Of a stretch of 64,000 nt of DNA, positions 23,762 to 38,064 are shown one piece after another. The DNA lies in assembly GCA_041228345.1 (NCBI GenBank), contig CP166131.1, positions 310,001 to 374,000 on the forward strand. Reading direction: 5' to 3'. Every line of letters starts with the position of its first letter. The stretch's first letter is position 1. The DNA is from Alphaproteobacteria bacterium LSUCC0396. Its GTDB lineage: Bacteria > Pseudomonadota > Alphaproteobacteria > Puniceispirillales > Puniceispirillaceae. The notes below the pieces were generated by a model. The model saw only the letters and a list, made by a program, of their open reading frames with translations, ran no database searches and was not told the DNA's origin. The position numbers and the translations under genes were made by a program.

Positions 23762-24469
23762 ATGACTGAGCCATTTCAAATCAGTGACGCAGAATTTCAA
23801 CGCCCCGATGACGCCCATCTGTTTGATCGTGCCCGTTCGCCCCACCCGCCGCGCGTCTTGTTGCTTTACGGGTCGTTAAGAGCGCGCTCGTTTAGTCGCT
23901 TGATGAGTGAAGAGGCCGGCCTTGTCCTTGCAAAATTAGGCGCCGAAACCAAAAGCTTTAACCCGAGCGGCCTCCCCCTGCCCGATGATGCCGACGCAAG
24001 CCACCCAAAGGTTACAGAATTACGTGACCTTGTGAGCTGGAGCGAGGCCATGGTCTGGTGTTCGCCCGAGCGGCATGGCGCAATGACTGGTATAATGAAA
24101 GCGCAGATTGACTGGATTCCCCTGTCCTTAGGCGCTGTTCGGCCAACCCAGGGCAAAACCCTTGCGCTGATGCAGGTCAATGGCGGGTCTCAAAGTTTCA
24201 ATGCGGTCAATCAGATGCGCATTCTAGGTCGTTGGATGCGCTGTTTAACGATTCCCAATCAATCGTCAGTCCCAAAGGCGTTTCAACAATTTGACGATAA
24301 CGACCGCATGAAGCCCTCGGCCTTTTACAACCGGATGGTCGATGTGATGGAAGAATTGGTCAAATTCACCCTTTTGACGCGCGGATGTTCTGATTATCTC
24401 ACTGACCGCTATAGCGAGAGGGTTGAAACCGCCGAAGCCTTGATCAACCGGGTAAATAACGAGGCTTAA
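23762..24469 (+). CDS. arsH: ArsH-like NADPH-dependent FMN oxidoreductase
   Basis: A 235-residue flavodoxin-fold protein of the ArsH type, which uses NADPH and FMN to oxidise trivalent organoarsenicals or reduce quinones and metals. [17 protein letters not shown] is the FMN phosphate loop (around residues 36-52), and [24 protein letters not shown] is the ArsH signature. No other ars genes are nearby, so an arsenic role is not shown by context. It is the last chromosomal gene before the genomic island; the island's displaced tRNA end starts 131 bp after its stop. Confidence 0.85.
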
Positions 24470-24600
24470 TCCAGCCGGCATAATCGCGCTAGGCTGGTGA
24501 CGATTGGCACCCCGCATATTGTCATCTTTTACGCCACCACGCATCAGTGGCACGGTGCAGATTGCGCGTTTCAATCGCCGCATTACGATGCTTTTATGTA

Positions 24601-24662
24601 AAAAATGGTCGGAGCGGCGGGATTCGAACCCACGACCCCTACACCCCCAGTATAGTGCGCTA
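24601..24662 (-). repeat. Left att repeat, displaced tRNA-Pro 3' end
   Basis: Sixty-two bases identical to 37103-37164. It contains the last 57 bases of the tRNA (from the 3' strand of the D stem to the encoded CCA) and then diverges at 24663, so it lacks the tRNA 5' part and cannot make a tRNA. Confidence 0.95.
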
Positions 24663-24778
24663 GTATTAGGCCTATAAAAATAACAGGCAAAACACATAAA
24701 AAACAATGCTTTATAAATTTAGTCTATCGTTTGGAAAATATTTGTAAAGGCTAATTCTGCCCAAAATTTGTAAAAAAT

Positions 24779-24796
24779 ATGACTTTTTGTATGACT
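24779..24796 (+). repeat. ATGAC-N5-GTATGACT element, left end of island
   Basis: An 18-bp element of the form ATGAC, five variable bases, GTATGACT, 117 bp inside the left att repeat. The same pattern with identical spacing and orientation occurs at 37021-37038 near the other end. It may be an integrase arm-type binding site. Confidence 0.5.
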
Positions 24797-24952
24797 CAAT
24801 TCTTGCATGATTTCAGGACTCAAAATCACAACAAAGATCTTGACCAATGACTGAAAGATTTTACCAAGAAATTAAGTTGGTAACTTTTTTCTTGGAGTAA
24901 ATTTCAGTATGGCACATAATTTAACTCCCAAGATGAGTTTTACAGGCGCGAC

Positions 24953-27900
24953 ATGTTGTATTTTTGCAAACGAGTTATTTCATTTATAACTTTAACTATA
25001 TTCTACATATCCCTGTCTTTAAACGTATCTTTTGCAAATACAAGCAACATTCTTTTTCAAAATATCCAAGATGTTCGATCATGTTTAGGCAAATATGATA
25101 GCTTTGAGATATTTAAAAAATCACTTAAATCTTGTTATGAGTCTAAGGGCCTAGAAATTTCTGATGAGGCATTGGGTAAATTATCACCCGAAATAACAAC
25201 CATTTTTAAAGATATTCCGCTTAACAATAAATTTGCCTCTGCAGGGCCAGCAACACCAAAAATTGGCATCACAACCGACACCCATAAAGCAATGGGGCAA
25301 TTTATCAAAGATTATCCTCAATTTATCTATGGCGCAGATCAAGAAATCACATCACTTGGCAATAGCGGTATTTTAGCTCCATCAGCTGCGGATGCTCTTA
25401 CAACTTCTGCCTATAATGCTTTTGAGCCTATCCTTTTAGCGCAGGCGACAACTCCAGCTCAGACGACAGCGGCGCCCACATCTACTGCAAGCTCCGCATC
25501 TGCTGCCTCGACCGCAAGCAGCGCCGCTGCAGCTAGCTCAGCTGCCGGCATCACAGCCTTTGTAGGCACTTTAGCATTTATTGAGTCCAACCCTTTAGGT
25601 GAAGAGACAAAAAAGGCCTTTTCAATATCACCAGTCACGACCTCTATCGCTGAAAACGCCGGAAGCGCAGTGACGGTTACATTTACATTGCCGGAAGGCG
25701 CAGCAACACCTGCAACGCTCAATATCACCACTGCAGGCACGGCAACCTCAGGCACGGACTACGCTCTTAGCGCCAACCAAATCACCATTCCGTCAGGCGG
25801 AACATCGGGCACAATCACGATTACACCGACAGACGACAGCGTTTATGAAGGTAATGAAACGGTCATAGTTTCAACAGCAGAGTATTCGTCTTATACATCC
25901 ACAATCACGATCACTGACAATGAAACAGCGCCAACTGTTTCCCTTTCTACATCAGCAACTTCAGTTGCAGAAAATAGCGGTACTGTCGTCACATTAACGG
26001 CAACATTATCCAACGCTGCAGACGAAGCCGTGACAGTGACTTTGGCAGCTGCAGGTACGGCCACGCTCAATACTGACTACGCTGTAAGTGCGACAACGAT
26101 CACAATTCCTGCTGGCAGCACAACTGGCACCGTCACAGCGACAGCCACAAATGATAGCGTTTACGAGCTTGATGAGACAGTCATCATCAGCATCAGCAGT
26201 GTTTCTGGCGCTGATGCCACAGAAAATGGCAATCAGTCACAAACCATTACAATTACAAATGATGAGGCAGCGCCGACTGTTACATTGTCTGCGTCTGGAA
26301 CAACAGTCGCAGAAAGTGGCGGCATATCATCTCGAACTATTGGTATAAATCTCTCCGGAGCAACATATCAGGACGTTGTAGTAACATTGGCACTAAGCTC
26401 AACTGCAACGGCTAACAGCGATTATCAGTTGCCAACCACTGCCACCATTACAGCGGGCCAGACACAAGAAATACTGAATTTTGTTGTGGCAGACGATATC
26501 ACTTATGAGATAGCTGAGACGGCAGTAATTGATTTAGACACTGTCACGGGTGGAGGTGCCTCTGAAAATGGTACCCAACAGCTCACAATAACAATTACGA
26601 GTGACGACTCCGCACCAACGTTAACGCTTGCCTCCTCAGCATCTTCAATGGATGAGAATGGCTCTGCTGTCACGCTGACAGGCACGCTCAGTAACCCTAC
26701 CTATCAGACAGTTACAGTTGGGCTCGCCGCCTCAGGTACAGCCACACTTAATACTGACTATGCCCTCAGTGCCACAAGCTTCACAATTGCGGCAGAAGGT
26801 ACAACCGGCACCGTTACAGCAACGCCAACTAATGACAGCACATTTGAAGGCGATGAGACCGTTATCATCGATGTATCGTCTGTTTCAGGTGGCGGCGCCA
26901 CTGAAAGCGGCACGCAGCAAGTCACTGTCACCCTGAAAGAAGATGATGCAGGACCGCAGCTAAGCATCAACGACGTCACAACATCAGATGAGTCTGCGGC
27001 CAATGCGACATTCACGATTACATCAAGTGTTGTATCCGCTTCTAACATGACAGTTGATTGGGCAACATCTAACGGAACAGCTACTGCCGGGTCTGATTAT
27101 ACTGCAGCATCTGGTACGGCGACCATCACAGCAGGTCAGACAACCACAACGATCAATGTAGGCGTTCTTGCTGACACGACCGATGAGCCAAATGAGACGG
27201 TCACAATCACGCTTTCAAATCCGACATTAGCGACTATATCAGACGCTACAGGCACGCTTACCATCACCGATGATGACGCAGCGCCTGCTATTTCGATTGC
27301 GAATGTCTCAAGAGCTGAAAATGGCGGCACGGCAACCATGACAGCCACATTGGCTGCAGCCTCAGCAAAAATAGTCACATTTGATTATGCAACATCCAAT
27401 GGTACGGCTACCGCTGGCTCTGATTATACCGCCGCGAGTGGTTCTCTCACCATTGCAGCTGGTCAAACGACAAAGACCTTTACTGTGGCCATAACCGATG
27501 ACACCACGGATGAAGTTGATGAAACAGTAACAGTTTCAATTTCTAATGCTGTCAATACGAGCAATGCGACAGCATCAGCAACTCTAACAATCACTGATAA
27601 TGATAATGCGCCAACTCTTTCAATAGCAGATGCACAAACCACAAATGAAGCCTCAGCGAGCACAAATTTGACGGTTTCATTGTCAGCAGCATCTGCAAAA
27701 GCAATCACAGTCGATTGGGCAACATCAAACGGTACAGCCACAGCTGGCTCTGACTATACGGCTGCTAGTGGAACGCTGAGCTTTGCTGCTGGTGAGACAA
27801 CAAAAACTGTTGCTGTAGCTGTTATTCAGGACAGTACATTTGAAGGTAACGAGACTGTAACAATCACCCTCACCAACCCCTCAAATGCAACAATTGCTGA

Positions 27901-30900
27901 TGCAACAGCTACTCTAACCATCACTGAAGATGATGCCGGCCCAATGCTGAGCATTAATGATCAAACGGTCAGCGAAAGCGCAGGCACTGCAACCTTTACT
28001 GTGACAATGTCCCCAACCTCGGCATCCAACGTCACTGTAAATTATGCGTCCGGAAACCCAGCAACGGCAACGGCAGGAGCTGATTACACAGCTGTATCTG
28101 GATCACTTACATTTACAGCTGGTCAATCGAGCAAGACCATCACCGTTACAATTGCTAATGACATCTTGGATGAGGATAATGAGACAGCAACAATCACATT
28201 GAGTGGCGCAGCTGGCGCTGGAACGACTGATGCGACTGGCCTCCTCACTATTACTGATGATGATGCAACGCCAACGATTTCGATCAACAGCACTGCATCA
28301 ATTACTGAAGGCGATTCAGGAACATCAACGCAGAATATGACTGCGACACTGAGCGCGGCCTCCGGACGTGATGTAACCTTTAATTATGCTATCACCGCCG
28401 GCACAGCAACATCTGCTGATTTCACAGCAGCAAGTGGCAGCTACACAATTTCTGCAGGGGCTACGACGCAAACAATCCCTGTTAGCATCATTGGAGACAC
28501 AGTAGAAGAAAACAAAACTGCTGAAACCGTTCTAGTGACAATTAGTAGCCCAACCAATGCCACGCTGGGGGCAATTGTGGTTGGTACGATTTCAATTACT
28601 GATAATGATGGCCTAAATGGCGGCACCACTGCGACCTATAACGCGGCAACTGCAACGTCAGTAGCGGCCAGCAACGAGTTCAAAAACTTCAATAACATGC
28701 AACAAGGCACATCGGGCCAAAGCGTTCAGAATCCGTTAGAAGTTGCTGGCTTTCACCATGCAGCCGGTTACGGCTTCACAGGTTCTGGCAAACGAGTGAT
28801 GGTGGTCGATGGAGGCTTTAAAAACACCCACAGAGATTTTGCAGGCAAAACGATTACCACTGCAGTTGGCAGCGGCTCGGATGCCACTGCATCAAGCGAC
28901 CACGGTTTGGCTGTCATGGGTATCATTGGAGCTAATGCGGATAGCACCGGTCTTAGAGGCGGAGCTCCCGGTGTTGATTTCATTACAGTGAACAACTCTG
29001 CAGCACTCACCAGTAGCTGGATCAACGCCATGCTAAATGATAATACATCGGTAGTGATGAACAACAGCTGGGGTTTCAACACAAGTGAAATTGACGAGGA
29101 ACTTGCACTAAAAGCAGCAAACGGGTGGACGTCGACAGAGTTGGCAACATACCGCTTTTACGGGAACACTAATTCAGCGAACGTTAGTACAATGAGTTCA
29201 TATATCAGTGCACTTGATGATTTCCAGAACAACGGTGTAATTGTTTTCTCAAACTCCAATTGTGGGGCGTCAGCCGCAGGCACTTCAACCTGTGGCGGAG
29301 GCGCTGCGTCAGACAATGCAGAAATCACCGCTGCTTTGCCCGAGCTGTTCCCCGAGTTAGCTGAGGCTTTTATTTCAGCAGTTAATATTGAAATAGATGG
29401 TGCCGCTGGATCAGAGACCTATACATTGATGTCAGCTCCATGCGGTGATGCCGGAAAATATTGCATGGGCGGTGACGGCTATGAATTAGGAACACTTTAT
29501 GGGGGAAGTGACTTTCTTTACAGGTACGCGGAATCGGGAACATCATATGTTGCCCCTCAAATTTCTGCGGCAATCGCCATTCTTGCCGAAGCATTTCCGA
29601 ATATGACACCACAACAGTGGGTTGATCGCCTTTTAGCATCTGCAAATAATAGTTTAAGTGGATGGAATCATGTTGGCACAGTTAATTTCGGTAATGGTGT
29701 AAGTCATGGTTATTCATGGGAAGCGGGTCACGGCATTCTTGATGTGTATGCCGCTCTAAAGCCAATCACGTCTTCAAGTTATTCTCAGAGTATATATGCA
29801 GGTGGGGGCAACCTCGCAGGTCAGCGCTACGACCTTTACAAACAAATGCTGGTCGCAGGGCAATCTATTGGTGATGGACTTAAATCAGGCCTCTCAGGCA
29901 TCAACAATTACTCCTTTGATGCTCTTGGTGGTGGCTTCAAGTATGATATGTCAGGACATGTCTCTCAAGTGGTGGAAACAGCCAAGACTGTTGATCTAGA
30001 AAATGAGCTCGCCGCATTGGATAGCCCAATTAAAGACCGCTTTGAGCTCAAAGTTAAAATGAGCTTTGCTGGATCAGCAGTTGATGGCACGCCTGACAAT
30101 GATAATCAGCGCTTTATCGCTACAGCTAACGCTGCTGCACCAGCTGTCCAATCATTCTTTGATTTCGGCTCAACTGCCCTCGCCTCTTACACAGACTATG
30201 ACACACCATACCTTGCAACCGATGAGGGCGGCGTTGGCTTAACATATGCCCAAAACCTTGGTGATACAAGTATCCTATTTAGCGTTAACAGGCCTGTTGA
30301 AGTGGGAGCAGGTGAAGAGGTCAAAGGCAAGCAGCACGTTGCTGTAATGTCATCAGACACAATGATCTCACCATCGACCCATCTCGGCTTTATGGCAGGT
30401 CAGGCAATCGAAAAAGATGGCTTCCTCGGCCTTCAGGGCACAGAAGCCTTCAATCTCGATAACTCTGAGAGCAACACATCCTTCATTGGTGTGAAGTTTG
30501 GCAAGATGCTGGGTGATGATCTAAAATTCAATGCCATGGCTACTGGCGGAAGAAGCATGATGGTTAGAACTGGCGATGGCATCATCAGAGGCGCATCTGA
30601 TGTTGTTTCCAGCTCCTATGGCTTCTCGCTGGAAAAAGCGAACATTTTCGGCAGAGATAGTCTGGCGATTTCACTTCAGCAACCAAACCGTGTTGAACAG
30701 GGCCGCATGAGTGTGATCACAAGCAACCTATCTGACAGTGATGGCAACCTTACATATAACAATCACAATGTTTCGATTGTGCCATCAGGTCGCCAGAAAG
30801 ACTTGGCAATTGGATATACGAAAGCTGTGAGTGATGATTTGACTATTTCAACGAAACTGATTGCGACTGATGAGCTCAATCATGTGAAATCTGCCAAAGA

Positions 30901-31012
30901 TGCTTACTCAGCCTTTGTTGGCTTCAAATCAGGCAACTTTAAGATGGGAACTTCAGCAGCAACGCATCGCAAAGGTTTTGATGCTCAAATCAACTACTCA
31001 ACTAAGTTCTAG
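24953..31012 (+). CDS. Giant exported Calx-beta / subtilase (S8) autotransporter-like protein
   Basis: A 2019-residue secreted protein. It has a signal peptide (about residues 1-29), a short Cys-containing region, an Ala/Ser/Thr-rich linker (about 160-200), nine Calx-beta repeats of about 110 residues (about 223-1220), a subtilisin domain with Asp1286, His1317, Asn in NNSWGF and Ser1531 (GTSYVAP), and a C-terminal region (about 1730-2019) that ends in Phe like an outer-membrane beta-barrel. The triad is complete, so it is probably an active protease held at or released from the cell surface. The repeats carry DxT/DxE-type acidic loops that bind calcium in the family. No close neighbours share its function. 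A terminator follows. Confidence 0.88.
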   Translation: MLYFCKRVISFITLTIFYISLSLNVSFANTSNILFQNIQDVRSCLGKYDSFEIFKKSLKSCYESKGLEISDEALGKLSPEITTIFKDIPLNNKFASAGPATPKIGITTDTHKAMGQFIKDYPQFIYGADQEITSLGNSGILAPSAADALTTSAYNAFEPILLAQATTPAQTTAAPTSTASSASAASTASSAAAASSAAGITAFVGTLAFIESNPLGEETKKAFSISPVTTSIAENAGSAVTVTFTLPEGAATPATLNITTAGTATSGTDYALSANQITIPSGGTSGTITITPTDDSVYEGNETVIVSTAEYSSYTSTITITDNETAPTVSLSTSATSVAENSGTVVTLTATLSNAADEAVTVTLAAAGTATLNTDYAVSATTITIPAGSTTGTVTATATNDSVYELDETVIISISSVSGADATENGNQSQTITITNDEAAPTVTLSASGTTVAESGGISSRTIGINLSGATYQDVVVTLALSSTATANSDYQLPTTATITAGQTQEILNFVVADDITYEIAETAVIDLDTVTGGGASENGTQQLTITITSDDSAPTLTLASSASSMDENGSAVTLTGTLSNPTYQTVTVGLAASGTATLNTDYALSATSFTIAAEGTTGTVTATPTNDSTFEGDETVIIDVSSVSGGGATESGTQQVTVTLKEDDAGPQLSINDVTTSDESAANATFTITSSVVSASNMTVDWATSNGTATAGSDYTAASGTATITAGQTTTTINVGVLADTTDEPNETVTITLSNPTLATISDATGTLTITDDDAAPAISIANVSRAENGGTATMTATLAAASAKIVTFDYATSNGTATAGSDYTAASGSLTIAAGQTTKTFTVAITDDTTDEVDETVTVSISNAVNTSNATASATLTITDNDNAPTLSIADAQTTNEASASTNLTVSLSAASAKAITVDWATSNGTATAGSDYTAASGTLSFAAGETTKTVAVAVIQDSTFEGNETVTITLTNPSNATIADATATLTITEDDAGPMLSINDQTVSESAGTATFTVTMSPTSASNVTVNYASGNPATATAGADYTAVSGSLTFTAGQSSKTITVTIANDILDEDNETATITLSGAAGAGTTDATGLLTITDDDATPTISINSTASITEGDSGTSTQNMTATLSAASGRDVTFNYAITAGTATSADFTAASGSYTISAGATTQTIPVSIIGDTVEENKTAETVLVTISSPTNATLGAIVVGTISITDNDGLNGGTTATYNAATATSVAASNEFKNFNNMQQGTSGQSVQNPLEVAGFHHAAGYGFTGSGKRVMVVDGGFKNTHRDFAGKTITTAVGSGSDATASSDHGLAVMGIIGANADSTGLRGGAPGVDFITVNNSAALTSSWINAMLNDNTSVVMNNSWGFNTSEIDEELALKAANGWTSTELATYRFYGNTNSANVSTMSSYISALDDFQNNGVIVFSNSNCGASAAGTSTCGGGAASDNAEITAALPELFPELAEAFISAVNIEIDGAAGSETYTLMSAPCGDAGKYCMGGDGYELGTLYGGSDFLYRYAESGTSYVAPQISAAIAILAEAFPNMTPQQWVDRLLASANNSLSGWNHVGTVNFGNGVSHGYSWEAGHGILDVYAALKPITSSSYSQSIYAGGGNLAGQRYDLYKQMLVAGQSIGDGLKSGLSGINNYSFDALGGGFKYDMSGHVSQVVETAKTVDLENELAALDSPIKDRFELKVKMSFAGSAVDGTPDNDNQRFIATANAAAPAVQSFFDFGSTALASYTDYDTPYLATDEGGVGLTYAQNLGDTSILFSVNRPVEVGAGEEVKGKQHVAVMSSDTMISPSTHLGFMAGQAIEKDGFLGLQGTEAFNLDNSESNTSFIGVKFGKMLGDDLKFNAMATGGRSMMVRTGDGIIRGASDVVSSSYGFSLEKANIFGRDSLAISLQQPNRVEQGRMSVITSNLSDSDGNLTYNNHNVSIVPSGRQKDLAIGYTKAVSDDLTISTKLIATDELNHVKSAKDAYSAFVGFKSGNFKMGTSAATHRKGFDAQINYSTKF

Positions 31013-31034
31013 AGCAAAACAAAATTTCAAATAG

Positions 31035-31063
31035 AAAAAGGGCTCCTTTAAGGGGCCCTTTTT
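31035..31063 (+). terminator. Rho-independent terminator after the Calx-beta/S8 gene
   Basis: AAAAAGGGCTCCTT then AAGGGGCCCTTTTT: a GC-rich stem of about nine pairs with one G-U-type mismatch, flanked by A- and T-runs, 22 bases after the stop. It would work in both directions. Confidence 0.9.
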
Positions 31064-31164
31064 CATACCCAAAGTCTTTGAACAATCTTTTGCTTGCCAC
31101 ATTCAGAACAAATAAACGCCAAGCTGCCCACCTAAGGTTAATTCTCTATTGGAGGATATAATTC

Positions 31165-31365
31165 ATGAACAAAATTTTTCTGACATTGTTTGCCATGACG
31201 CTTGGTGGTTGCAATGCAGCATATATTGAAACAGTTAATAAACAGCTCGCTGAAGGGTACAGATGGGTAGAAATACCATGTCGGCCTGCAAAATCTGATG
31301 TGCCGTCAATTACAATAAATACGCCAGACAACAAAAAACTGGTCTGCAATGAACTGCAAAAGTAG
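31165..31365 (+). CDS. Small lipoprotein of unknown function
   Basis: A 66-residue protein with a lipoprotein signal: MNKIFLTLFAMTLGGC, lipobox Leu-Gly-Gly-Cys16. The mature part has two further cysteines (in IPCRPAKSD and KLVCNEL) that could form a disulfide in the periplasm. I do not recognise the family. A strong GGAGG ribosome site precedes the ATG, and it lies just after the terminator of the giant protease, so it is its own unit. Confidence 0.7.
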   Translation: MNKIFLTLFAMTLGGCNAAYIETVNKQLAEGYRWVEIPCRPAKSDVPSITINTPDNKKLVCNELQK

Positions 31366-31756
31366 TTTTTGCTGATTGGCTTTCATATTTAAGAAGTGAG
31401 CAGTCATTTTTTTGCTTAGACCTTTGAGTGAACTCCAGATTTAGGCAAACACTCAGTCAAAGGAACTTTACAACCTCATTTTAGAAGCTATTTTCATTAG
31501 ATACATGAAGAGAGGACTGACGTCCCGCCAACCTGCTAGATCCAGCAAGGTGGCTTCCTTTTTCAAAAAGGCATGTGACCTTTGGGTAACAATTGGGTCC
31601 ATGAGCGTCTGTCCTCCAAGGGAAACCTAGGAGGATTTTTTATGCCTAAAACACATCACAACACCTCCTGATACTTATTGAAATTTGTTCATGGTAACCG
31701 ACCGCATGAAGCGCTGGTTACCTGCTGTTTGATATGTAAATCAGAAGGAGAATGTC
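31366..31756. other. Gene-free stretch with likely structured RNA
   Basis: A 391-bp gap inside the island. From about 31525 it contains a stem-type inverted repeat (GCC-ACC-TGCT around AGATCC, then AGCA-GGT-GGC) followed by a T-run, and from 31612 a strong GAAA-capped terminator hairpin. Directly after the hairpin a 9-codon frame (31642-31671, MPKTHHNTS) opens with AGGAGG upstream, part of the hairpin's own 3' arm. This looks like a small RNA or a leader with a terminator/ribosome-site switch. I recognise no known riboswitch class. Confidence 0.45.
31612..31641 (+). terminator. GAAA-tetraloop intrinsic terminator
   Basis: TCCTCC-A-AGG, loop GAAA, CCT-A-GGAGGA, then six T. Nine pairs with one internal A/A mismatch and a stable GNRA loop. 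Its 3' arm contains AGGAGG, a perfect ribosome-binding sequence just before an ATG. Confidence 0.8.
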
Positions 31757-32098
31757 ATGAGTAATCCTCATGCAAATAAAGACCAATGCCCTTTAATCGA
31801 GTTCCATGAAAGACGTGAGAAAGCATCTGTACTTTTCACGCCACCAGTAACTGATCTGTTCAAGAGTTATGATCAGCGCTCCGAGCTCGTCAATGCCATT
31901 GGAGATGAAATAAACAGAGTTCCAGCAAACTTCATACCCTATGGATGCATTGTCTTTAAGGGTCTGATGTTTGTTTATCAGTCATTCTGGAACGAAGAAG
32001 AAGACATGTTTTTCATGGATATTGACCTAGCTTCAAAATTACGCATGGTTGGCCATATGAAAAAAACAAAGTTCAAGACAAACAACACATTTCACTAA
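31757..32098 (+). CDS. Hypothetical island protein
   Basis: A 113-residue protein starting MSNPHANKDQCPLIEFHER. It has no signal peptide or membrane helix, and it contains a hydrophobic core IPYGCIVFKGLMFVYQSF and an acidic WNEEEDMFF stretch. It matches no family I know. An excellent AGAAGGAGA ribosome site stands upstream of the ATG, which makes it a credible gene. Inverted repeat GATGCC-GGGC-GGCATC follows the stop. Confidence 0.6.
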   Translation: MSNPHANKDQCPLIEFHERREKASVLFTPPVTDLFKSYDQRSELVNAIGDEINRVPANFIPYGCIVFKGLMFVYQSFWNEEEDMFFMDIDLASKLRMVGHMKKTKFKTNNTFH

Positions 32099-32311
32099 AT
32101 GATGCCGGGCGGCATCACCGCCCTTCCCTCCAATAAATTTTGTGCCCAAAAGAAATGCCCTAAATTTGGCCACTGACGGCCTCAACGAGGGATGCCGTGT
32201 GGAATAAGGAGAGCAGCCTTAAAGGCCTCTCAGAGACTCTCTAAGACTCATTAAAAGCTTGTCCTTTTTGAAGGGTATTTCTTTGAGCTTTTCACTAGAA
32301 AGGAAAAGATT

Positions 32312-32524
32312 ATGGAAAGTGATTTTGAAAGTTTCACAGAAGAGCAATTTTTAAACAGATCGGTAAAAAGAATAGAGGTCTCTTTTTGTGAAAAAGCAAA
32401 TCATCAATCAATGATTGATGGCAATGTCGTCTATTTGAAACCGCCATCACCTTTTGTGCATTACCTTATGCTCACAAATAGCTGGACAAGAGGTCAGGCA
32501 GAATTCTTTCAATATCTTGCATAA
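32312..32524 (+). CDS. Small hypothetical island protein
   Basis: A 70-residue soluble protein (MESDFESFTEEQFLNRSVKR...). It has no recognisable domain. AAAGGAAAAG at good spacing supports the ATG. A GC-rich hairpin follows it. The 213-bp gap before it holds no clear gene. Confidence 0.5.
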   Translation: MESDFESFTEEQFLNRSVKRIEVSFCEKANHQSMIDGNVVYLKPPSPFVHYLMLTNSWTRGQAEFFQYLA

Positions 32525-32540
32525 ATGATATTAAAAGGAA

Positions 32541-32558
32541 GGGGGCATTGCTGCCCCC
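32541..32558 (+). terminator. Hairpin after the 70-residue gene
   Basis: GGGGGCA, loop TTGC, TGCCCCC: a perfect 7-bp stem starting 17 bases after the stop. The bases after it are not a T-run, so it may stabilise the 3' end or act as a Rho-aided end rather than a textbook terminator. Confidence 0.5.
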
Positions 32559-32610
32559 ATCAAATAATCTAAAAGACCGATGTGGGTAGTATGGTATATA
32601 TCTATATAGT

Positions 32611-32699
32611 GTATCAATTTAGATACATGCTCATAGTACCAATATACCTTAACAGTATTGTTAATGTTACCGGCCGGGTAACATCATATCGCTGATATG
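32611..32699. promoter_or_regulatory. Cluster of three palindromes between island genes
   Basis: Three different perfect palindromes lie in 89 bp: GTATC-6-GATAC (32611-32626), TGTTACC-5-GGTAACA (32665-32683) and CATATC-3-GATATG (32685-32699). They abut the 3' end of the winged-helix gene, whose stop is at 32701, and are surrounded by AT-rich sequence. They could be operators or an origin-like site; nothing else in the window resembles them. Confidence 0.4.
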
Positions 32700-32700
32700 A

Positions 32701-33102
32701 CTATATCATATCTCTCAGGTTACTGCCTTTTGATTTCCATGACTTATATTTTTGTGTGGCAACTTTATTGCCAACAGGAAGATGCGTGGGAGCATATTGA
32801 CGCGCAAGCCTCTTACCATTTTGGAATGTAGTTTTTTGGGTGCACTCAATAAGACCCACAAGCTCAAGCATTCTTAGAGCTGTGGCAGCAGTGTTTGGCG
32901 TAACTTTGGCAAACTTTGCTGCTTGACGGCAACTAAGAGGTATTGAACCGTTATTCGTCCCATTATAGGCCCATATCACCGCAATATAAACTAGCCTTGC
33001 ACTTGCTGGACAGTCCTTCCAAGCATCGCTCTCAATCATGCTATGCGGAAGCTTGATAAACTGACCATTGGATTTGTGTTTTTTGTGAGCAATTTTTCTC
33101 AT
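32701..33102 (-). CDS. Winged-helix protein of integrated elements
   Basis: A 133-residue basic protein. SNGQFIKLPHSMIESDAW, then SARLVYIAVIWAYNG, then LSCRQAAKFAKVTPNTAATALRMLELVGLIE form a winged-helix DNA-binding domain. It is of the type found in small mobile elements as a replication or transcription regulator. I start at the ATG at 33102, where GAGG stands eight bases upstream; the longer frame adds 35 unlikely residues. It is the only clear DNA-binding protein in the island besides the integrase, so it could control the island's excision or replication; that is an inference. Confidence 0.65.
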   Translation of the reverse strand: MRKIAHKKHKSNGQFIKLPHSMIESDAWKDCPASARLVYIAVIWAYNGTNNGSIPLSCRQAAKFAKVTPNTAATALRMLELVGLIECTQKTTFQNGKRLARQYAPTHLPVGNKVATQKYKSWKSKGSNLRDMI

Positions 33103-33192
33103 GTCTAAGACCTCATCTAAAATTAACTTTAGAAAAGGTGTTAATCGATTTAATGTGGTACTTGGCCAATTCCGAATGTACCAGACAGACGC

Positions 33193-33339
33193 ATGAAAAA
33201 TCTTCAAGACAAAATCAAATAAGAGATTGCAAATCCAGACACGGCATTGAGAAGAGAAGTCTTAAATGTCAGGCTCACTGTCGCTGTAGATGAGTTAAAA
33301 AAACATGGCCACATTGATCAAAACACAAAGATAACTTGA
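33193..33339 (+). pseudogene. Possible interrupted small gene
   Basis: A frame that starts at ATG 33193 (MKNLQDKIK) hits TAA at 33220, but continues in the same frame for 38 codons of ordinary-looking sequence (EIANPDTALRREVLNVRL...) to TGA at 33337. One sense codon at 33220 would give a 48-codon protein. This may be a decayed gene or chance. It ends 15 bp before the next gene start. Confidence 0.25.
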
Positions 33340-33354
33340 ATAAGAAGAGATCAT

Positions 33355-33798
33355 TTGACTGAAATATTGGAGCTCCTTGAAATTGCTTCAAAGAACAGGT
33401 CACTGTCCATCAATAGAAATAACTCCAGCCGCGCGTCTAACGCAGCTGATAATCAGATTTTGAGAGATGCACTTTTTGATCTTTTAAAAATTTTTTCTGA
33501 TGAAAAGCAGCCAACGCCAACAAAGCTGATAGAATTATTGGAAAAGCATGGCGGAGGAAGTTTAAGAAGTGATGTAAGCTTGATATCACAGGTTGGCTAT
33601 GACCTTGCGAACGCGAATAAGGATGAAGGCCAGAGGCTATCCAACAGAAACATAGCCTCAATCATACAGGTAAAACACCCGACAGTCGCAAGAAGGAGAG
33701 CTACAAAAAAATATAAGGACTATAGATCTGCTTTTTCATCAGACGAAGAGTTTATCGGTATGTTTAATGACGTCCTAACTCTTGTTTTGATGCTATAG
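33355..33798 (+). CDS. Hypothetical protein with a C-terminal helix-turn-helix-like segment
   Basis: A 147-residue protein with a TTG start at 33355 and AAGAAGAGA upstream. The N-terminal two-thirds look helical. LSNRNIASIIQVKHPTVARRR (about residues 99-119) resembles a short helix-turn-helix followed by basic residues (KKYKDYR). The family is unknown. It sits between the winged-helix gene and the enamidase-like operon and may be an island regulator; this is an inference. Confidence 0.5.
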   Translation: MTEILELLEIASKNRSLSINRNNSSRASNAADNQILRDALFDLLKIFSDEKQPTPTKLIELLEKHGGGSLRSDVSLISQVGYDLANANKDEGQRLSNRNIASIIQVKHPTVARRRATKKYKDYRSAFSSDEEFIGMFNDVLTLVLML

Positions 33799-34085
33799 AA
33801 ATTAACTTAGATTTGAATGCATCAGGCAAAAAAGCTTTTGATGCCACCTGAACATAAAAATTTGCTAAGAACGTTATCTGCTTCATTTTATTTTATATTA
33901 AAAACAGATATTTAATAGAATATTGAAGCCTCTTAGGCTGACGCAAGGATGAGCAAAAAAATTTTCCCACTATTTTGATCTAACCATTTCAGGGCTTAAA
34001 GATCTTATCACTTGACGGCTTGATCTTTCGCGCATGACTATAAATTCATGTTGAATTCTGATCTTACGCGTGATGAGGCCTTTTC

Positions 34086-35273
34086 ATGAAAACTGCGATT
34101 ATCAACATTGGACAGATTGTATCAGGGGATATCCAAGCTACCCTCACTTCGGGTGATGCCATTCTTATGGAAGGCGAAAACCTCACAAAAGTAGGACAAA
34201 TTTCAGAAAAAGATATCCAAGATAGCGACGTCGTCATTGACGCTGGCGGCGCTGTTGCAATACCGGGCCTCATTGATTCACACGTACATATAACATTTGG
34301 AGACTTCACTCCTAGGCAGAACACTGTTGGTTATCTTCAGAGCTATCTACATGGCGGTGTTACAACAAGTATCTCAGCATCAGAGGTACATGTTCCCGGA
34401 CGGCCAAAGGATCCAGATGGCGTAAAAGCTCTAGCTGTGGCGGCCAAAAAATGTTTTGAGAGCTATAGGCCCGGCGGCATGCGCGTTCATGCGGGATCGC
34501 TCATTTTAGAACCGGGCATGACAATAGCCGACTACCGAGATGTTCTTTTAAAAGGTGTTTGGCTGGCCAAGGCTGGCTTTGGTGCCGTTAAGTCGGCATC
34601 TGATTATATTCCTATGGTCTCTGAGGCAAGAAAGGCGGGTTTATTCACAACTCTGCATACTGGCGGCGCCTCCATACCGGGGTCTTTTCCGATAACTGGC
34701 GAAGATTTGATTAATATTAACCCGCATGTGTCTTTTCACATAAATGGCGGCCCTGTCTCAATGGAGGATAAATATTTTGAAATTGTTGCCAGAGATACAG
34801 AAATAGCTATGCAGGTTTGTACTGCCGGTAATCTAAGAACAACCATACTTTGCGCAGAAATGGCCAGAAAACATGATGCATTTGAGCGTTTCTTGATTGC
34901 AACAGATACACCAACAGGAAGCGGCATCATGCCGCTGGGCTTGATTTACACAATAAGCCAGATTGCATCTCTTGCGGATTTTGATGTGCCTGCTTTAATC
35001 GCTGCAGCAACAGGCAATGTTGCAAAATGCTATGGTCTCAATAGTGGATTTTTAAAAGCTGGCTGTGATGCAGATGTTGTATTAATCGATGCTCCACTTG
35101 GTGGAACACAGAATGACGCCCTAGCAGCCCTTAAAAATGGTGACCCTTGTGCGATAGGCGCCGTAATAACTGCTGGCGTGCCAAGGTTTGTTGGCAGGAG
35201 TAACAATACACCGCCAACAATCTGCGAGATAAAGGTTACCAAATCCAATATCATGAACATGTTTCAAGGGTAG
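34086..35273 (+). CDS. Enamidase-like amidohydrolase
   Basis: A 395-residue TIM-barrel amidohydrolase with a binuclear metal site. It resembles the enamidase branch, known from nicotinate fermentation, where the ring enamide of 6-oxo-tetrahydronicotinate is opened. H66-x-H68 (DSHVHI), Lys169 (GAVKSAS), His191 (LHTGG), His218 (HINGGP) and Asp274 (IATDTPTGSG) fall at the ligand positions, with Lys as the likely bridging residue. AGGCC and T-rich spacing precede the ATG. The next gene, an AA_synth family protein, starts 9 bp after its stop. The true substrate is unknown; other cyclic amides fit equally. Confidence 0.8.
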   Translation: MKTAIINIGQIVSGDIQATLTSGDAILMEGENLTKVGQISEKDIQDSDVVIDAGGAVAIPGLIDSHVHITFGDFTPRQNTVGYLQSYLHGGVTTSISASEVHVPGRPKDPDGVKALAVAAKKCFESYRPGGMRVHAGSLILEPGMTIADYRDVLLKGVWLAKAGFGAVKSASDYIPMVSEARKAGLFTTLHTGGASIPGSFPITGEDLININPHVSFHINGGPVSMEDKYFEIVARDTEIAMQVCTAGNLRTTILCAEMARKHDAFERFLIATDTPTGSGIMPLGLIYTISQIASLADFDVPALIAAATGNVAKCYGLNSGFLKAGCDADVVLIDAPLGGTQNDALAALKNGDPCAIGAVITAGVPRFVGRSNNTPPTICEIKVTKSNIMNMFQG

Positions 35274-35281
35274 GTGTAACG

Positions 35282-35881
35282 ATGGATACCAAGGTTGATG
35301 GCTATCAAATTCGCAAATGGATTGAGTTTTTCGAAGAGGCCAATTCTAACGAGACAGGTAAAGATGCTGACGGCTTACCAATTGCCAAATTTGGCGTTGG
35401 CGCCATCATCAAAAACCCTTATGCCGGCAAATTCTCACAAGAGTTATCACTCCTAACTGAACCTTCAAAGGGACTTGGTGAAGCTTTTGGTGAGCGTTTG
35501 CTAAGAGCAGCTAATGGCTATGCAGTTGTCAGCTACGGCAAATCATGCATTGTTGGCGTAAATGGCGAATATGAGCATGGTAATGCATGCTTAACAACAG
35601 CATTTGCAGACCCTGTCAGGAAAGCTATCGGCGGCGGACAGGCATGGATACCATCAACAGGCAAGATTGGCGGGCCCGGAACAGCGATTGATATACCATT
35701 GGCGCATAAAGATGCACTATATGTCCGCTCTCATTACGACACATTTACCGTATCAGCCCATGATGCGCCTAGAGCTGACGAAATCTTAGTGCTGTTTGCA
35801 GGAGCTTCACGCGGCCGACTTCATGCAAGGCTTGGCGGCCTTAATGAGGCTGATGTAACTGGCAGGGATGGTTTGCGGTAG
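35282..35881 (+). CDS. AA_synth (PF06684) family protein
   Basis: A 199-residue protein of the amino-acid-synthesis family. Recognisable parts are KFGVGAIIKNPYAGKF, the SYGKSCIVGVNGEYEHGNA strand, and the GGPGTAIDIPLAHKDALYVRSHYDTF block. The family's chemistry is not firmly known. Pairing with an amidohydrolase 9 bp upstream suggests that the two act on the same compound. Its stop is followed by a GC-rich, T-tailed repeat near 35970-35990 before the convergent integrase gene. Confidence 0.78.
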   Translation: MDTKVDGYQIRKWIEFFEEANSNETGKDADGLPIAKFGVGAIIKNPYAGKFSQELSLLTEPSKGLGEAFGERLLRAANGYAVVSYGKSCIVGVNGEYEHGNACLTTAFADPVRKAIGGGQAWIPSTGKIGGPGTAIDIPLAHKDALYVRSHYDTFTVSAHDAPRADEILVLFAGASRGRLHARLGGLNEADVTGRDGLR

Positions 35882-36004
35882 CAATCAACGCTGCAATTTT
35901 GACACTATCAAAACTCTTTTGAGCAAAACTCCATAGAAGTCTTTTATGCAGGGGCTGTCATCAAAGGTGCTCCCCCTCGGGGTGGGTTTTGATAAGGGCA
36001 ATTT

Positions 36005-37006
36005 TTAAATAACCCCGCCTGCTAGTTTTTTACGCAAATGCATTTGATTTGCATGGCTGTAACGCTGCAGCATAGACAGCTCTCTATGGCCAGATATTGA
36101 TTGGATTTCAGGCAAAGTCAGACCCATTTCATGGAAACGTGAAATAGCTTCATGCCTTAGATCATGGAAGTGAAGATATGGAAGGCCAGCAAGCAGCCTT
36201 ATCTTTTCAAAACAGCTCCTCAATGCATAAACACTAATCGGAAAAACACGCTCATTTGGCGGTGCAATGAGCTTCAAATCTTCAAGGATCAAGGCTATAT
36301 CACTGTTAAAAGGTATATATCGACCGTAACCAGATTTCGTATTTTTTGCTTTAACTTCAATAAACATATTATTGATATTTATATCTTGCCAATGAAGATA
36401 CAGCATCTCCCCTCGCCTCATTCCTGTTGCGAGAGCCAATTTGATCAATGGCAGGATATAAATATTCTGACTGCTGATCTTTTGAGCTGCCTCAAGAAGC
36501 CGGCTTTCATCTGATGGCAGCAATCTCTCAATTTCACGGTGAAATATCTTTGGCAAAATTAAGCTTTTAAAAAGCTTTACTGGCACATCAAAACCAAGTG
36601 CTTCTGCTGCATTTGCTGCAGCTTTTACGATTGCCCATTCACGCTTAAAGGTTGACGATTTAACAGATATCAGGCGCTGATCTCTAAAACCAGATAGCAG
36701 TTCTAAGTTTAGATTAGAAACCGGTATATCGACCCAAGCTTCTCGCAAAAGGCGATTTATAATAATTGCCTCATTTTCTGCGCCGCGCTTTGTTGGCGTT
36801 ATAATGGCCTTATATTTCTTAAGGACGTCTGCAAAGCATGCATTGCTCGTCTCTGACGCATGCGAATCGCCTCTGATCATGGCTAATTCTTGCTGAGCTG
36901 CCCATATTTGCGCTTCTTGTTTGATGTTGAAGGTAGCAGATTTAAATTTTCCGGCGATTTTAACCTGAGCTACCCAACGTTGATTCCTCTGTTTAAAACT
37001 TGCCAA
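36005..37006 (-). CDS. int: Tyrosine recombinase (island integrase)
   Basis: A 333-residue phage-type site-specific recombinase that integrates and excises the island at tRNA-Pro. The full catalytic set is present: Arg197 (TGMRRGE), Lys224 (TKSGYGR), His281 and Arg284 (HDLRHE), His307 (SGHREL) and the nucleophile Tyr316 (QRYSH). An N-terminal arm/core DNA-binding region covers about residues 1-150. The gene starts 101 bp from the 3' end of the tRNA on the same strand, the classic tRNA-integrase order, and no frameshift is seen, so the island may still be mobile. Confidence 0.93.
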   Translation of the reverse strand: MASFKQRNQRWVAQVKIAGKFKSATFNIKQEAQIWAAQQELAMIRGDSHASETSNACFADVLKKYKAIITPTKRGAENEAIIINRLLREAWVDIPVSNLNLELLSGFRDQRLISVKSSTFKREWAIVKAAANAAEALGFDVPVKLFKSLILPKIFHREIERLLPSDESRLLEAAQKISSQNIYILPLIKLALATGMRRGEMLYLHWQDININNMFIEVKAKNTKSGYGRYIPFNSDIALILEDLKLIAPPNERVFPISVYALRSCFEKIRLLAGLPYLHFHDLRHEAISRFHEMGLTLPEIQSISGHRELSMLQRYSHANQMHLRKKLAGGVI

Positions 37007-37020
37007 AACACCCTCCCTTT

Positions 37021-37038
37021 ATGACAAATCGTATGACT
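37021..37038 (+). repeat. ATGAC-N5-GTATGACT element, right end of island
   Basis: Same consensus, spacing and orientation as the element at 24779-24796, here 65 bp inside the right att repeat and 15 bp upstream of the integrase start. It could be an arm-type integrase or excisionase site and could also regulate the integrase gene. Confidence 0.5.
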
Positions 37039-37102
37039 TTTGACATAAAGCAGTTGTTTTTTGGTTAAGCTAAATCATCTTAAATAACTGTTATTTATAA
37101 GG

Positions 37103-37164
37103 AAAAATGGTCGGAGCGGCGGGATTCGAACCCACGACCCCTACACCCCCAGTATAGTGCGCTA
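37103..37164 (-). repeat. Right att repeat, within the intact tRNA-Pro
   Basis: Sixty-two bases identical to 24601-24662. It contains the 3' 57 bases of the functional tRNA and five bases beyond the CCA, so integration here restored the tRNA gene. Confidence 0.95.
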
Positions 37165-37184
37165 CCAGGCTGCGCTACGCTCCG
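37108..37184 (-). tRNA. tRNA-Pro (anticodon GGG)
   Basis: Reading the minus strand from 37184: acceptor CGGAGCG, D arm GCGC/GCGC, anticodon stem CTATA with loop CTGGGGG (anticodon GGG) and TGTAG, T arm GTGGG-TTCGAAT-CCCGC, acceptor CGCTCCG, then A and an encoded CCA (37110-37108). All stems pair. It reads CCC/CCU proline codons. It is the integration target of the island. Confidence 0.97.
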
Positions 37185-37250
37185 GCCAAGGCTGGTTATA
37201 GCCGCGCCTACATATCTAGGCAATCAGCTTTTCACCAAAATAATATAAGC

Positions 37251-37637
37251 TTATGCGTTAAGCTGTTGTTTGAGGGTCATGAGGCGAGTTTTTACGTCGT
37301 CAAGCATCGCAATCGCGTCTTGCAGGGTTGGCGGCGCCGCACCTTCAGTGCTGGCAACGCTGACACTGGCAACGCTGACAGGAATGCTTGCTGATGCTTT
37401 GCTGCGCACCAGCTTTTGCGCGCCCTTGATGGTGAATCCGTCAACATAGAGAAGCTGCCTTATACGGCGCAAGACAGCGATATCATCGGGGCGGTAATAG
37501 CGCCGGCCGCCGCTCCGTTTTAACGGGCGAAGGCTGCTGAATTTACTCTCCCAAAACCGCAAAACATGCTGTGGCACATCAAGCAACGCAGAAACTTCTG
37601 AAATTGTTTTGAAAGCGTCGTTGGCTTTATCGTTCAT
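37251..37637 (-). CDS. MerR-family transcriptional regulator
   Basis: A 128-residue regulator. [52 protein letters not shown] is the MerR winged helix (residues 10-61), and a short C-terminal part follows with Ala/Ser repeats and a coil. It lacks the metal-binding cysteines of metal sensors. The ATG overlaps the ihfA stop by four bases (ATGA), so it is translated with ihfA. This ihfA-merR pair is normal downstream of fabH in alphaproteobacteria. Its target is unknown. Confidence 0.88.
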
Positions 37638-37924
37638 TTCGCGCCGTCTACACGGTCCTTAAGGATATGTGAAGGGCGGAACGACAGCACGCGTCGCGGT
37701 GTGATAACCGCTTCGATCCCAGTTTTGGGATTACGGCCAACACGCTCGCTCTTAGATTGAACTGAAAATGTGCCGAATGAAGACAGTTTAACTTCTTCGC
37801 CAGCCTCTAAACAGGAACATATTTCCTCGAGTACCGCCTCGACCAGATCGGACGATTCGTTACGTGAGAGGCCTATGTTGCGATAGACTGATTCGGTTAA
37901 ATCTGCGCGTGTAAGTGTTCCCAT
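37634..37924 (-). CDS. ihfA: Integration host factor subunit alpha
   Basis: IHF alpha bends DNA sharply with its beta partner and serves replication, transcription and site-specific recombination. The 96-residue protein starts [20 protein letters not shown], typical of IHF alpha in this group, and has [21 protein letters not shown] and the [19 protein letters not shown] arm region. The ATG at 37924 is chosen because the frame upstream of it has no IHF homology. It lies between fabH and merR. IHF is often a co-factor of tRNA-targeted integrases, such as the one next door. Confidence 0.94.
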
Positions 37925-38064
37925 GGTCAAAACGCTAACCATTTTTTTGCGAATGGTCAATTCAGAAAACCCGCGGACACTATGCTTTACACCGATAAAT
38001 AGGAAAAAAATGGGTTTTAGGATCAAAAAACCATGGTATCTCGCGCAATCCTTGGGTCAGCGAC

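Follow-up and report, generated by a model that had tools for sequence, protein, structure and literature searches.

A window of 64,000 nucleotides from the genome of Alphaproteobacteria bacterium LSUCC0396 contains, at 24601-37164, an integrative island of about 12.5 kb that is targeted to a tRNA-Pro gene and is, as such, ordinary. The target, an intact tRNA-Pro (GGG) gene, lies on the minus strand at 37108-37184, and its 3' part overlaps the right attachment repeat (37103-37164). The left attachment repeat (24601-24662) consists of the 57-nt 3' fragment of the same tRNA plus five A. These two direct repeats are 62 nt long, perfectly identical, and form the sole direct-repeat family within 24000-38000 at the settings used. 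The complete 2.59-Mb genome holds only these two exact copies, which excludes a chance origin of the repeat; a third match, 79% identical, is presumably another tRNA-Pro. Adjoining the tRNA, a tyrosine recombinase (36005-37006, minus strand) matches the Phage_integrase family at 9.9e-29 and the PHROG integrase at 1.7e-45, and contains the catalytic R, HxxR and Y motifs. The island interior has a G+C content of 44.1%, against 52.0% and 52.4% in the flanks. The first-pass annotation had described a tRNA-Pro island with perfect 62-bp att repeats at the tRNA 3' end, an adjacent complete recombinase and an AT-rich interior, and this picture is upheld throughout. No relative of the integrase was confirmed in viral contigs, and the 516 phage records with a match are all less than 60% identical, the top-ranked ones 32%.

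The annotation had also pointed to the tRNA-Pro locus of relatives, and both empty and otherwise filled forms are found there. In one genome of the SAR116 family (G016), the same tRNA and the same left-flank genes (GNAT, gfa) have nothing between them, while in another (G029) about 10 kb of other DNA occupies the site, bounded by a 76-nt tRNA copy. On single contigs of seven other genomes, the full tRNA is accompanied by additional copies or by 3' fragments that differ in length from that of the window. In G021, 52 of the first 53 bp inward from the tRNA end match the window, and the host flanks are 82-89% identical. The counter-reading that the repeat is merely a conserved duplicated tRNA is ruled out, since the left copy comprises only the 3' end of the gene and the seven genomes show additional copies or fragments of differing length.

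The cargo is mixed. The largest gene (24953-31012, plus strand) encodes a secreted-type protein of 2019 aa with Calx-beta repeats, an S8 subtilase domain and a putative C-terminal barrel that ends in F. The protease domain is found at 3.9e-15 when scanned alone and is not reported in the whole-protein scan; the C-terminal part has no Pfam or PDB match, and among the 60 other family genomes it has a strong relative in one and a weak relative in a second. A 66-aa ORF that looks lipoprotein-like by eye (31165-31365, plus) has no family in Pfam, NCBIfam or PHROGs scans, with only chance-level Pfam rows. Further downstream follow an HTH replication-like protein of the DnaD-like helicase loader family, read from the ATG at 33102 (32701-33102, minus), the 147-aa ORF147 without a detected family (33355-33798, plus), an enamidase-like amidohydrolase (34086-35273, plus; 2vun, 9e-93) and an AA_synth (DUF1185) protein (35282-35881, plus; PF06684, 7.9e-63; 2qtp, 3byq). 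Close copies of the AA_synth gene (76-81%) are confined to three other genomes of the family, two of which have them next to tRNA-Pro fragments. The claim that the island lacks phage and conjugation genes stands in its second half, as none of the nine island ORFs scanned matches a conjugation family, and falls in its first: 32701-33207 (minus), as scanned, matches the phage DnaD-like helicase loader family (PHROG 186) at 5.2e-07. Neither AlpA nor a primase was matched among the island ORFs in Pfam or PHROGs, where of these three the integrase alone was found, and PADLOC gave no match for the replication-like gene, ORF147 or the orphan proteins ORF113, sm70, ORF199 and ORF165 introduced below. 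The exoprotease and the metabolic pair described earlier are borne out, but the cargo mix sets the island apart to a lesser degree than does an orphan gene under predicted riboswitch control. This riboswitch, of the SAM-I/IV class, and its gene are absent from the first-pass annotation.

The aptamer lies at 31498-31603 (plus) and scores 65.1 bits against RF01725, whose gathering threshold is 41.1; this match places it in the SAM-I/IV class of riboswitches, as a predicted SAM sensor that should control a small orphan gene. The expression platform follows at 31606-31635 (plus), where CGTCTGTCCTCC can pair either with the 5' strand of aptamer helix P2 (10 of 11 positions) or with the AGGAGGA start-site region. 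Behind this stem starts an upstream ORF of nine codons (MPKTHHNTS; 31642-31671, plus). The start-site region of ORF113 (AGAAGGAG; 31743-31750, plus) sits within a second predicted hairpin and is followed by ORF113 itself, an orphan protein of 113 aa tied to the riboswitch (31757-32098, plus), and by sm70 (32312-32524, plus), a small orphan protein that follows ORF113 in each of the four SAR116 loci. A SAM-V RNA was not found in the window. The nine-codon ORF occupies the same place in all four SAR116 loci, and the pairing of the CGTCTGTCCTCC type recurs at a fixed place, with 10 of 11 pairs, in all four SAR116 leaders as well as in six of seven tested leaders from gammaproteobacterial or Burkholderiales MAGs. 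For the SAR116 set of four, a forced ON fold lies 2.0-6.0 kcal/mol above the minimum. The RNAalifold covariation term is small (-0.19), and of eight stem pairs, three show two-sided change and three are disrupted in a single sequence. Of 33 RF01725 loci put through a crude pairing scan, only 12 reached p<0.05; a misplaced anchor made the scan miss two of the four SAR116 leaders. Conservation is high in the aptamer, the platform and the segment leading up to ORF113, but not in the residues of the nine-codon ORF.

The riboswitch and ORF113 are closely linked. With strict filters, RF01725 is found in four of 61 SAR116-family genomes, and a separate search for ORF113 returned the same four, a coincidence with a chance of 1.9e-06 if the genomes are independent; the two are 147-155 nt apart in the four loci, and no ORF113 without a riboswitch was seen among the 61 genomes. 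As the cassettes of G039 and G042 are near-identical, about three independent lineages support ORF113. A profile built from the other three copies finds the window ORF113 at 4.4e-33 and, likewise, the window sm70 at 1.7e-08. The surroundings differ: one of the loci (L131) combines a tRNA-Ser, a P4-type integrase and an AlpA-like gene (below cut-off), another (L130) a tRNA-Phe, a Prim-Pol and an AAA_25 gene, and a third (L129) two integrases. The window genome itself has another such SAM-switch locus at a tRNA-Phe. A protein behind an RF01725 match in G411 may tentatively be a distant ORF113 relative (0.0007 among 178 ORFs, 0.06 in a set of 8518). Pfam, NCBIfam, PHROGs and PADLOC assign ORF113 to no family, and its fold suggests no function: a fold search gave weak matches to several RelE/HigB/ParE chains (Z about 4) and, as best row, MAJIN (Z 6.2), and the Foldseek PDB matches, led by complex I subunits, are weak as well (best E 0.076). 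Single-sequence scans of genomes and viral contigs confirmed no further copies, a negative of little weight, as the genome scan also overlooked three copies that the same collection yielded to the aptamer pattern; tblastn found none in phage and plasmid records. Neither the exact riboswitch core nor the SAM-V-like core was found in viral contigs.

Related arrangements exist in sister elements, where the sensor may belong to another class. ORF165 lies directly behind a SAM-V-like RNA in G012, G013, G026 and G042, and in G018 by pattern and repeat, whereas in G280 and G339 it lies behind SAM-I/IV, with no SAM-V match. Likewise, ORF199 follows a SAM-V-like RNA in G013 and SAM-I/IV in G395. For both families, the SAM-V-like RNAs belong to SAR116 and the SAM-I/IV RNAs to other alphaproteobacteria, and this class swap argues that SAM control itself is selected. 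We refer to these RNAs as SAM-V-like because all their scores (24.9-38.6 bits) are below the RF01826 gathering threshold of 41; the three metY-linked RF01826 copies of the family (G015, C1:523533; G051; G056; TIGR01326 above cut-off) are also below it (28.8-32.7 bits). The RF01826 match is specific: at E<=0.1 it occurs in 14 of 39 family genomes, a hand-chosen set that includes those already known from the pattern search, and in none of 14 control genomes. The core pattern search yielded 14 of 61 genomes, with one reversed-pattern control match; among these, the G045 and G058 matches lacked confirmation as SAM-V. ORF165, ORF199, ORF120 and sm79 have no match in the libraries tried for each, and the predicted structure of ORF165 has a pLDDT of 34. 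These orphan genes are small, vary between elements and lie behind primase genes in G039, G280 and G339. A tRNA repeat was seen only in G026, and none in the searched stretches of L129, L130, L131, L274, L275 and L276. In PADLOC, the DUF2779 protein encoded in G039 gave Cas4-type matches, and one G042 protein a weak match to LmuB.

Outside SAR116, what follows RF01725 is at many loci a methionine-type gene (metA, metF; named by eye). Of 40 RF01725 loci, a set without the window's own locus, six had an integrase in the fetched flanks, including two from SAR116, versus one of 19 same-contig controls; this count is biased upward because query integrases had come from five of those six; with methionine-type genes downstream, the idea that RF01725 loci are generally mobile was dropped. 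In four gammaproteobacterial or Burkholderiales loci, the position of the nine-codon ORF opens an ORF of 119-130 aa. A homology between ORF119, which lies behind SAM-I/IV in such MAGs, and the SAR116 ORF120, which follows a SAM-V-like RNA, appeared likely by eye but found no support (HHalign probability 3%).

We consider it probable that the locus is a satellite-like tRNA-Pro island with a SAM-off accessory module, made when SAM falls. The recombinase would join an attP carrying 57 nt of the tRNA 3' end to the tRNA, which would stay whole, and the island would leave by excision. It would move probably via a helper, as no transfer genes and only a small replication-type gene were detected. When SAM is plentiful, the aptamer would form and occupy the P2 strand, and CGTCTGTCCTCC would base-pair with the nine-codon ORF's start-site region (OFF); when SAM is scarce, CGTCTGTCCTCC would pair with the P2 5' strand and release the start site (ON). 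Once the short ORF is translated, expression would proceed to ORF113 and sm70, either because termination at the stem plus U run is prevented or by coupling. Sister elements would follow the same logic with SAM-I/IV or SAM-V-like RNAs.

An ordinary role in sulfur or methionine economy is possible, though less likely than not: ORF113 and its neighbours would aid the host under a shortage of methionine or reduced sulfur, and the element would carry them for their benefit, comparable to metY or metA behind SAM switches elsewhere. OFF control by SAM suits nutrient limitation, and the RF01826 motif before metY and the metA/metF-type genes behind RF01725 in other families fit as well. However, ORF113 is without a family, the other orphans are without a match in the libraries tried for each, and they are small, vary between elements and are partly placed behind primase genes.

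That no ORF113 without the riboswitch was found in 61 genomes, and that the RNA elements are conserved while the short-ORF residues are not, makes it unlikely that the riboswitch is a relic whose regulated gene shrank to nine codons, with ORF113 expressed independently, even though ORF113 has its own AGAAGGAG and the start behind the stem opens a much longer ORF in four other loci. A plain genomic island with the riboswitch as a chance passenger of the cargo block, of no role for the element, would suit the mixed cargo (S8 protease, enamidase-like pair) and the sparse AA_synth copies near tRNA-Pro fragments; we hold it to be decidedly improbable, as the riboswitch-ORF113 cassette turns up again in unlike settings and a SAM switch is retained by two gene families despite a change of riboswitch class.

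The island resembles several known systems. With tRNA-targeted islands with tyrosine recombinases, including marine tycheposons (PMC10872708, PMC10803314), it shares att repeats at the tRNA 3' end, an integrase by the tRNA, mixed cargo and tandem tRNA fragments in relatives; it adds a SAM-I/IV riboswitch and a small orphan gene. With PICMI and minimal phage satellites (PMC10803314), it shares small size, site specificity, an integrase and accessory genes, but PICMI combine integrase, AlpA and primase, whereas the window island has the integrase alone and no known helper. Sister elements (G039, G280, G339, G042) come closer, with some of integrase, AlpA-like gene (below cut-off) and primase beside the riboswitch. 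None of the eight papers listed by a literature search on satellites and riboswitches deals with SAM switches, judged by title and abstract start. Where RF01725 otherwise stands before a methionine gene, the copy in the window is followed, within a mobile island, by a nine-codon ORF and then an orphan gene. The sister-element variant of SAM-V (RF01826) preserves almost every conserved consensus letter, and also the start-site position, of the RNA found before metY or bhmT (PMC6061858, PMC2704228), but precedes orphan genes and scores below gathering. Phages with SAMases degrade SAM early in infection (PMC7877911, PMC8406200). As a tentative and rather unlikely extension, marine alphaproteobacteria may host a guild of satellite-like elements in which two unrelated riboswitch classes read SAM and small accessory proteins are switched on when it collapses, triggered by SAM-degrading phage or methionine starvation, possibly with infection-sensing interference or induction genes among them.

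Riboswitches are normally viewed as housekeeping feedback on metabolic genes. ORF113, ORF165, ORF199 and sm79 are concrete targets for function tests with a ligand already known, and a riboswitch variant described mainly from metagenomes gains hosts and gene contexts. The findings suggest that cargo expression in some mobile elements follows the SAM level of the host, and if the recurrent, class-swapping link holds, mobile DNA would monitor a central host metabolite.

The island (24601-37164) is delimited by a perfect 62-nt direct repeat (24601-24662 and 37103-37164), the sole direct-repeat family reported within 24000-38000. The right copy consists of the final 57 nt of a tRNA-Pro(GGG) gene on the minus strand (37108-37184) and five A; the left copy represents a 3' fragment of that gene. 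No third exact copy exists in the complete 2.59-Mb genome, the next match being 79% identical. The unit measures 12,502 bp and has a G+C content of 44.1%, compared with 52.0 and 52.4% outside; its integrase was judged intact from its motifs. The perfect att repeats in the tRNA-Pro 3' end, the intact integrase and the AT-rich interior described in the first-pass annotation are thus all borne out, and the island itself is an already-known type of element.

The same tRNA-Pro site was surveyed in relatives across 40 fetched loci, where an empty and an otherwise filled form of the locus were both found. G016 joins its tRNA-Pro, MerR and IHF genes directly to the GNAT and gfa genes of the window's left flank; this is an empty site. 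In G029, the site holds about 10 kb of different DNA, closed by a 76-nt tRNA copy. Furthermore, in seven genomes (G028, G015, G029, G001, G017, G038 and G007) the contig with the full tRNA-Pro also bears extra copies or 3' fragments. In G028 (C1:60300-95000; L064/L065), one intact tRNA-Pro is followed by four 3' fragments in series, a tandem accretion of elements, and in G018 a contig that lacks the tRNA bears three fragments, including a short one. These copies and fragments show that this hotspot has been used, with insertions in tandem. In G021, one contig begins 53 bp inside an element, with 52 of these 53 bp identical to the window's inner end, and another stops exactly at the repeat end; identity to the window in its host flanks is 89% on the right and 82-86% on the left, and neither the island integrase nor ORF113, the 113-aa orphan discussed below, was found in this 99% complete assembly. 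The assembly of G019, of the same species as the window, is broken near the tRNA with its left flank unmatched and is uninformative on site occupancy. In the window's genome and G021, an ArsH-like gene (23762-24469) separates the GNAT gene from the island. G016 and G029 lack it at that position, and it may stem from an older insertion at this site.

The largest cargo gene (24953-31012) encodes a 2019-aa protein with Calx-beta repeats followed by an S8 domain. Its C-terminal part is unrecognised, ends in F and has relatives in two of the 60 other family genomes, one of them strong; from its sequence, the protein is possibly an atypical autotransporter. An enamidase-like hydrolase (match to 2vun at 9e-93) and an AA_synth protein form a pair; the latter has close copies (76-81%) only in G017, G018 and G025, each beside a similar hydrolase (in G025 by eye); those of G017 and G018 lie near tRNA-Pro fragments. 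The remaining cargo comprises a replication-type HTH protein, an orphan 147-aa ORF and a riboswitch block.

This block opens with a SAM-I/IV riboswitch (RF01725; 31498-31603), which scores 65.1 bits in cmscan against a gathering score of 41.1. Among 61 genomes of the family, which is SAR116, searched with filters that miss some weak matches, RF01725 occurs in four (the window's genome, G013, G039 and G042), and a separate protein search found ORF113 in the same four. All four loci share one order: aptamer, a CGTCTGTCYTCC stem with the start-site region, a 9-codon ORF, a conserved stretch and ORF113, with the small orphan sm70 further downstream. Leave-one-out profiles retrieve both proteins, with values no worse than 1e-22 for ORF113 and 0.0003 for sm70; the G039 and G042 cassettes are almost identical and count as one lineage. 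The predicted fold of ORF113 is of moderate confidence (pLDDT 73) and resembles known structures weakly (Z 6.2 for the top row, about 4 for several toxins of RelE type; Foldseek best E 0.076 in the PDB and 0.0044 in a viral library), so these model-based matches support no claim of function.

The 11-nt 5' strand of aptamer P2 could pair at 10 of 11 positions with a segment that would otherwise mask the start-site region. This pairing recurs at a fixed position (+95 to +98) in all four SAR116 leaders, and at +81/82 in six of seven tested leaders from gammaproteobacterial and Burkholderiales MAGs, which were retrieved by aptamer pattern (exception L183; the cut locus L186 lies outside the seven). 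Behind the stem, the start codon opens nine codons in SAR116 and a 119-130-aa orphan ORF in L184, L185, L188 and L191, where the SAM-I/IV platform leads directly into this protein family with the motif FDLGxHWYS..WRTNYWVK. Between the two alternative folds, the energy gap in the SAR116 leaders is 2.0-6.0 kcal/mol. For these four, RNAalifold predicts 69 pairs, of which 11 show two-sided change; its covariation term is just -0.19. It also predicts a second hairpin spanning the ORF113 start-site region; of the eight platform-stem pairs, three show two-sided change and three are broken in one sequence. A crude pairing test was positive at 12 of 33 RF01725 loci; two of the four SAR116 leaders escaped it. 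SAM-I-type switches are usually OFF at high SAM, and because of this behaviour and the leader geometry we infer that high SAM would turn the island leader OFF as well.

Could RF01725 be a generally mobile feature? We reject this reading: many of its loci precede methionine-type genes (named by eye). At class level it occurs in 34 of 385 genomes, that of the window among them, with integrases near 6/40 loci (two of them SAR116; five of the six had supplied queries) versus 1/19 controls, and primases near 3/40 versus 0/19.

Within the family, the other three copies also lie on elements. That of G042 has a tRNA-Ser, a P4-type integrase, an AlpA-like gene (below cut-off), riboswitch and ORF113; that of G039 has a tRNA-Phe, an HTH gene, Prim-Pol, AAA_25, riboswitch, ORF113 and a DUF2779 protein with a Cas4-like part; and that of G013 has two integrases, riboswitch and ORF113. 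For these three, no att repeats turned up within the stretches searched. Internal repeats revealed a second leader, which matches SAM-V (RF01826) at 24.9-38.6 bits, always below the gathering score of 41 (L129 14064-14133 and 9041-9112; L131 14774-14843 and 15700-15769; cores in L278 at 8676 and 9107 and in L285 at 10535). At E<=0.1, such SAM-V-like matches, none above cut-off, appear in 14 of 39 family genomes, hand-chosen and including those already found by pattern search, and in 0/14 control genomes. There are 23 matches in all, and the genes behind them are nine of sm79 type (one cut by a contig end and assigned by its opening codons), four ORF165, four ORF120 (of which one is truncated), three metY, which is SAM-V's known use, one ORF199 and one ORF265; one match was not placeable. 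Several leaders of orphan genes on these elements are paired, and they are near consensus though below the gathering score.

G013 combines one SAM-I/IV with three SAM-V-like leaders. In G026, 49-nt tRNA-Arg repeats (98% identical) enclose sm79, ORF165 and two SAM-V-like switches, and an integrase lies just beyond the far repeat. The window's genome has a second integrase locus (G000:C1:1881525-1883723; L274 7526-9724) with a tRNA-Phe, a DUF6538-type integrase and a SAM-V-like leader (C1:1883462) before an sm79-type 61-aa gene; a search for an att repeat there found none. The G012:C4 element carries SAM-V-like leaders, ORF165, a P4-type integrase and a relative of the replication-like gene. It also encodes a C5-cytosine DNA methylase (L211 7674-8633), an enzyme that uses SAM on an element that would sense it.

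Among the papers listed from an open library, titles and abstract openings mention no SAM riboswitch in a satellite or island, although published reports may exist; a SAM-switch module on elements of this kind seems to be a new variation on known parts. Its two riboswitch classes are exchanged. The orphan gene ORF165 stands directly behind SAM-V-like RNA in G012, G013, G026 and G042, and in G018 by pattern and repeat. In G280 and G339, which belong to different families within the class, a SAM-I/IV switch precedes it by 582 and 449 nt, with one ORF between and no SAM-V match, and on the switch's upstream side both also have genes for an integrase and a primase; G345 has both RNAs with ORF165. 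Likewise, the orphan ORF199 is preceded by SAM-V-like RNA in G013 and by SAM-I/IV in G395. The use of two unrelated RNAs for one gene family is the strongest indication that control by SAM is important for these genes.
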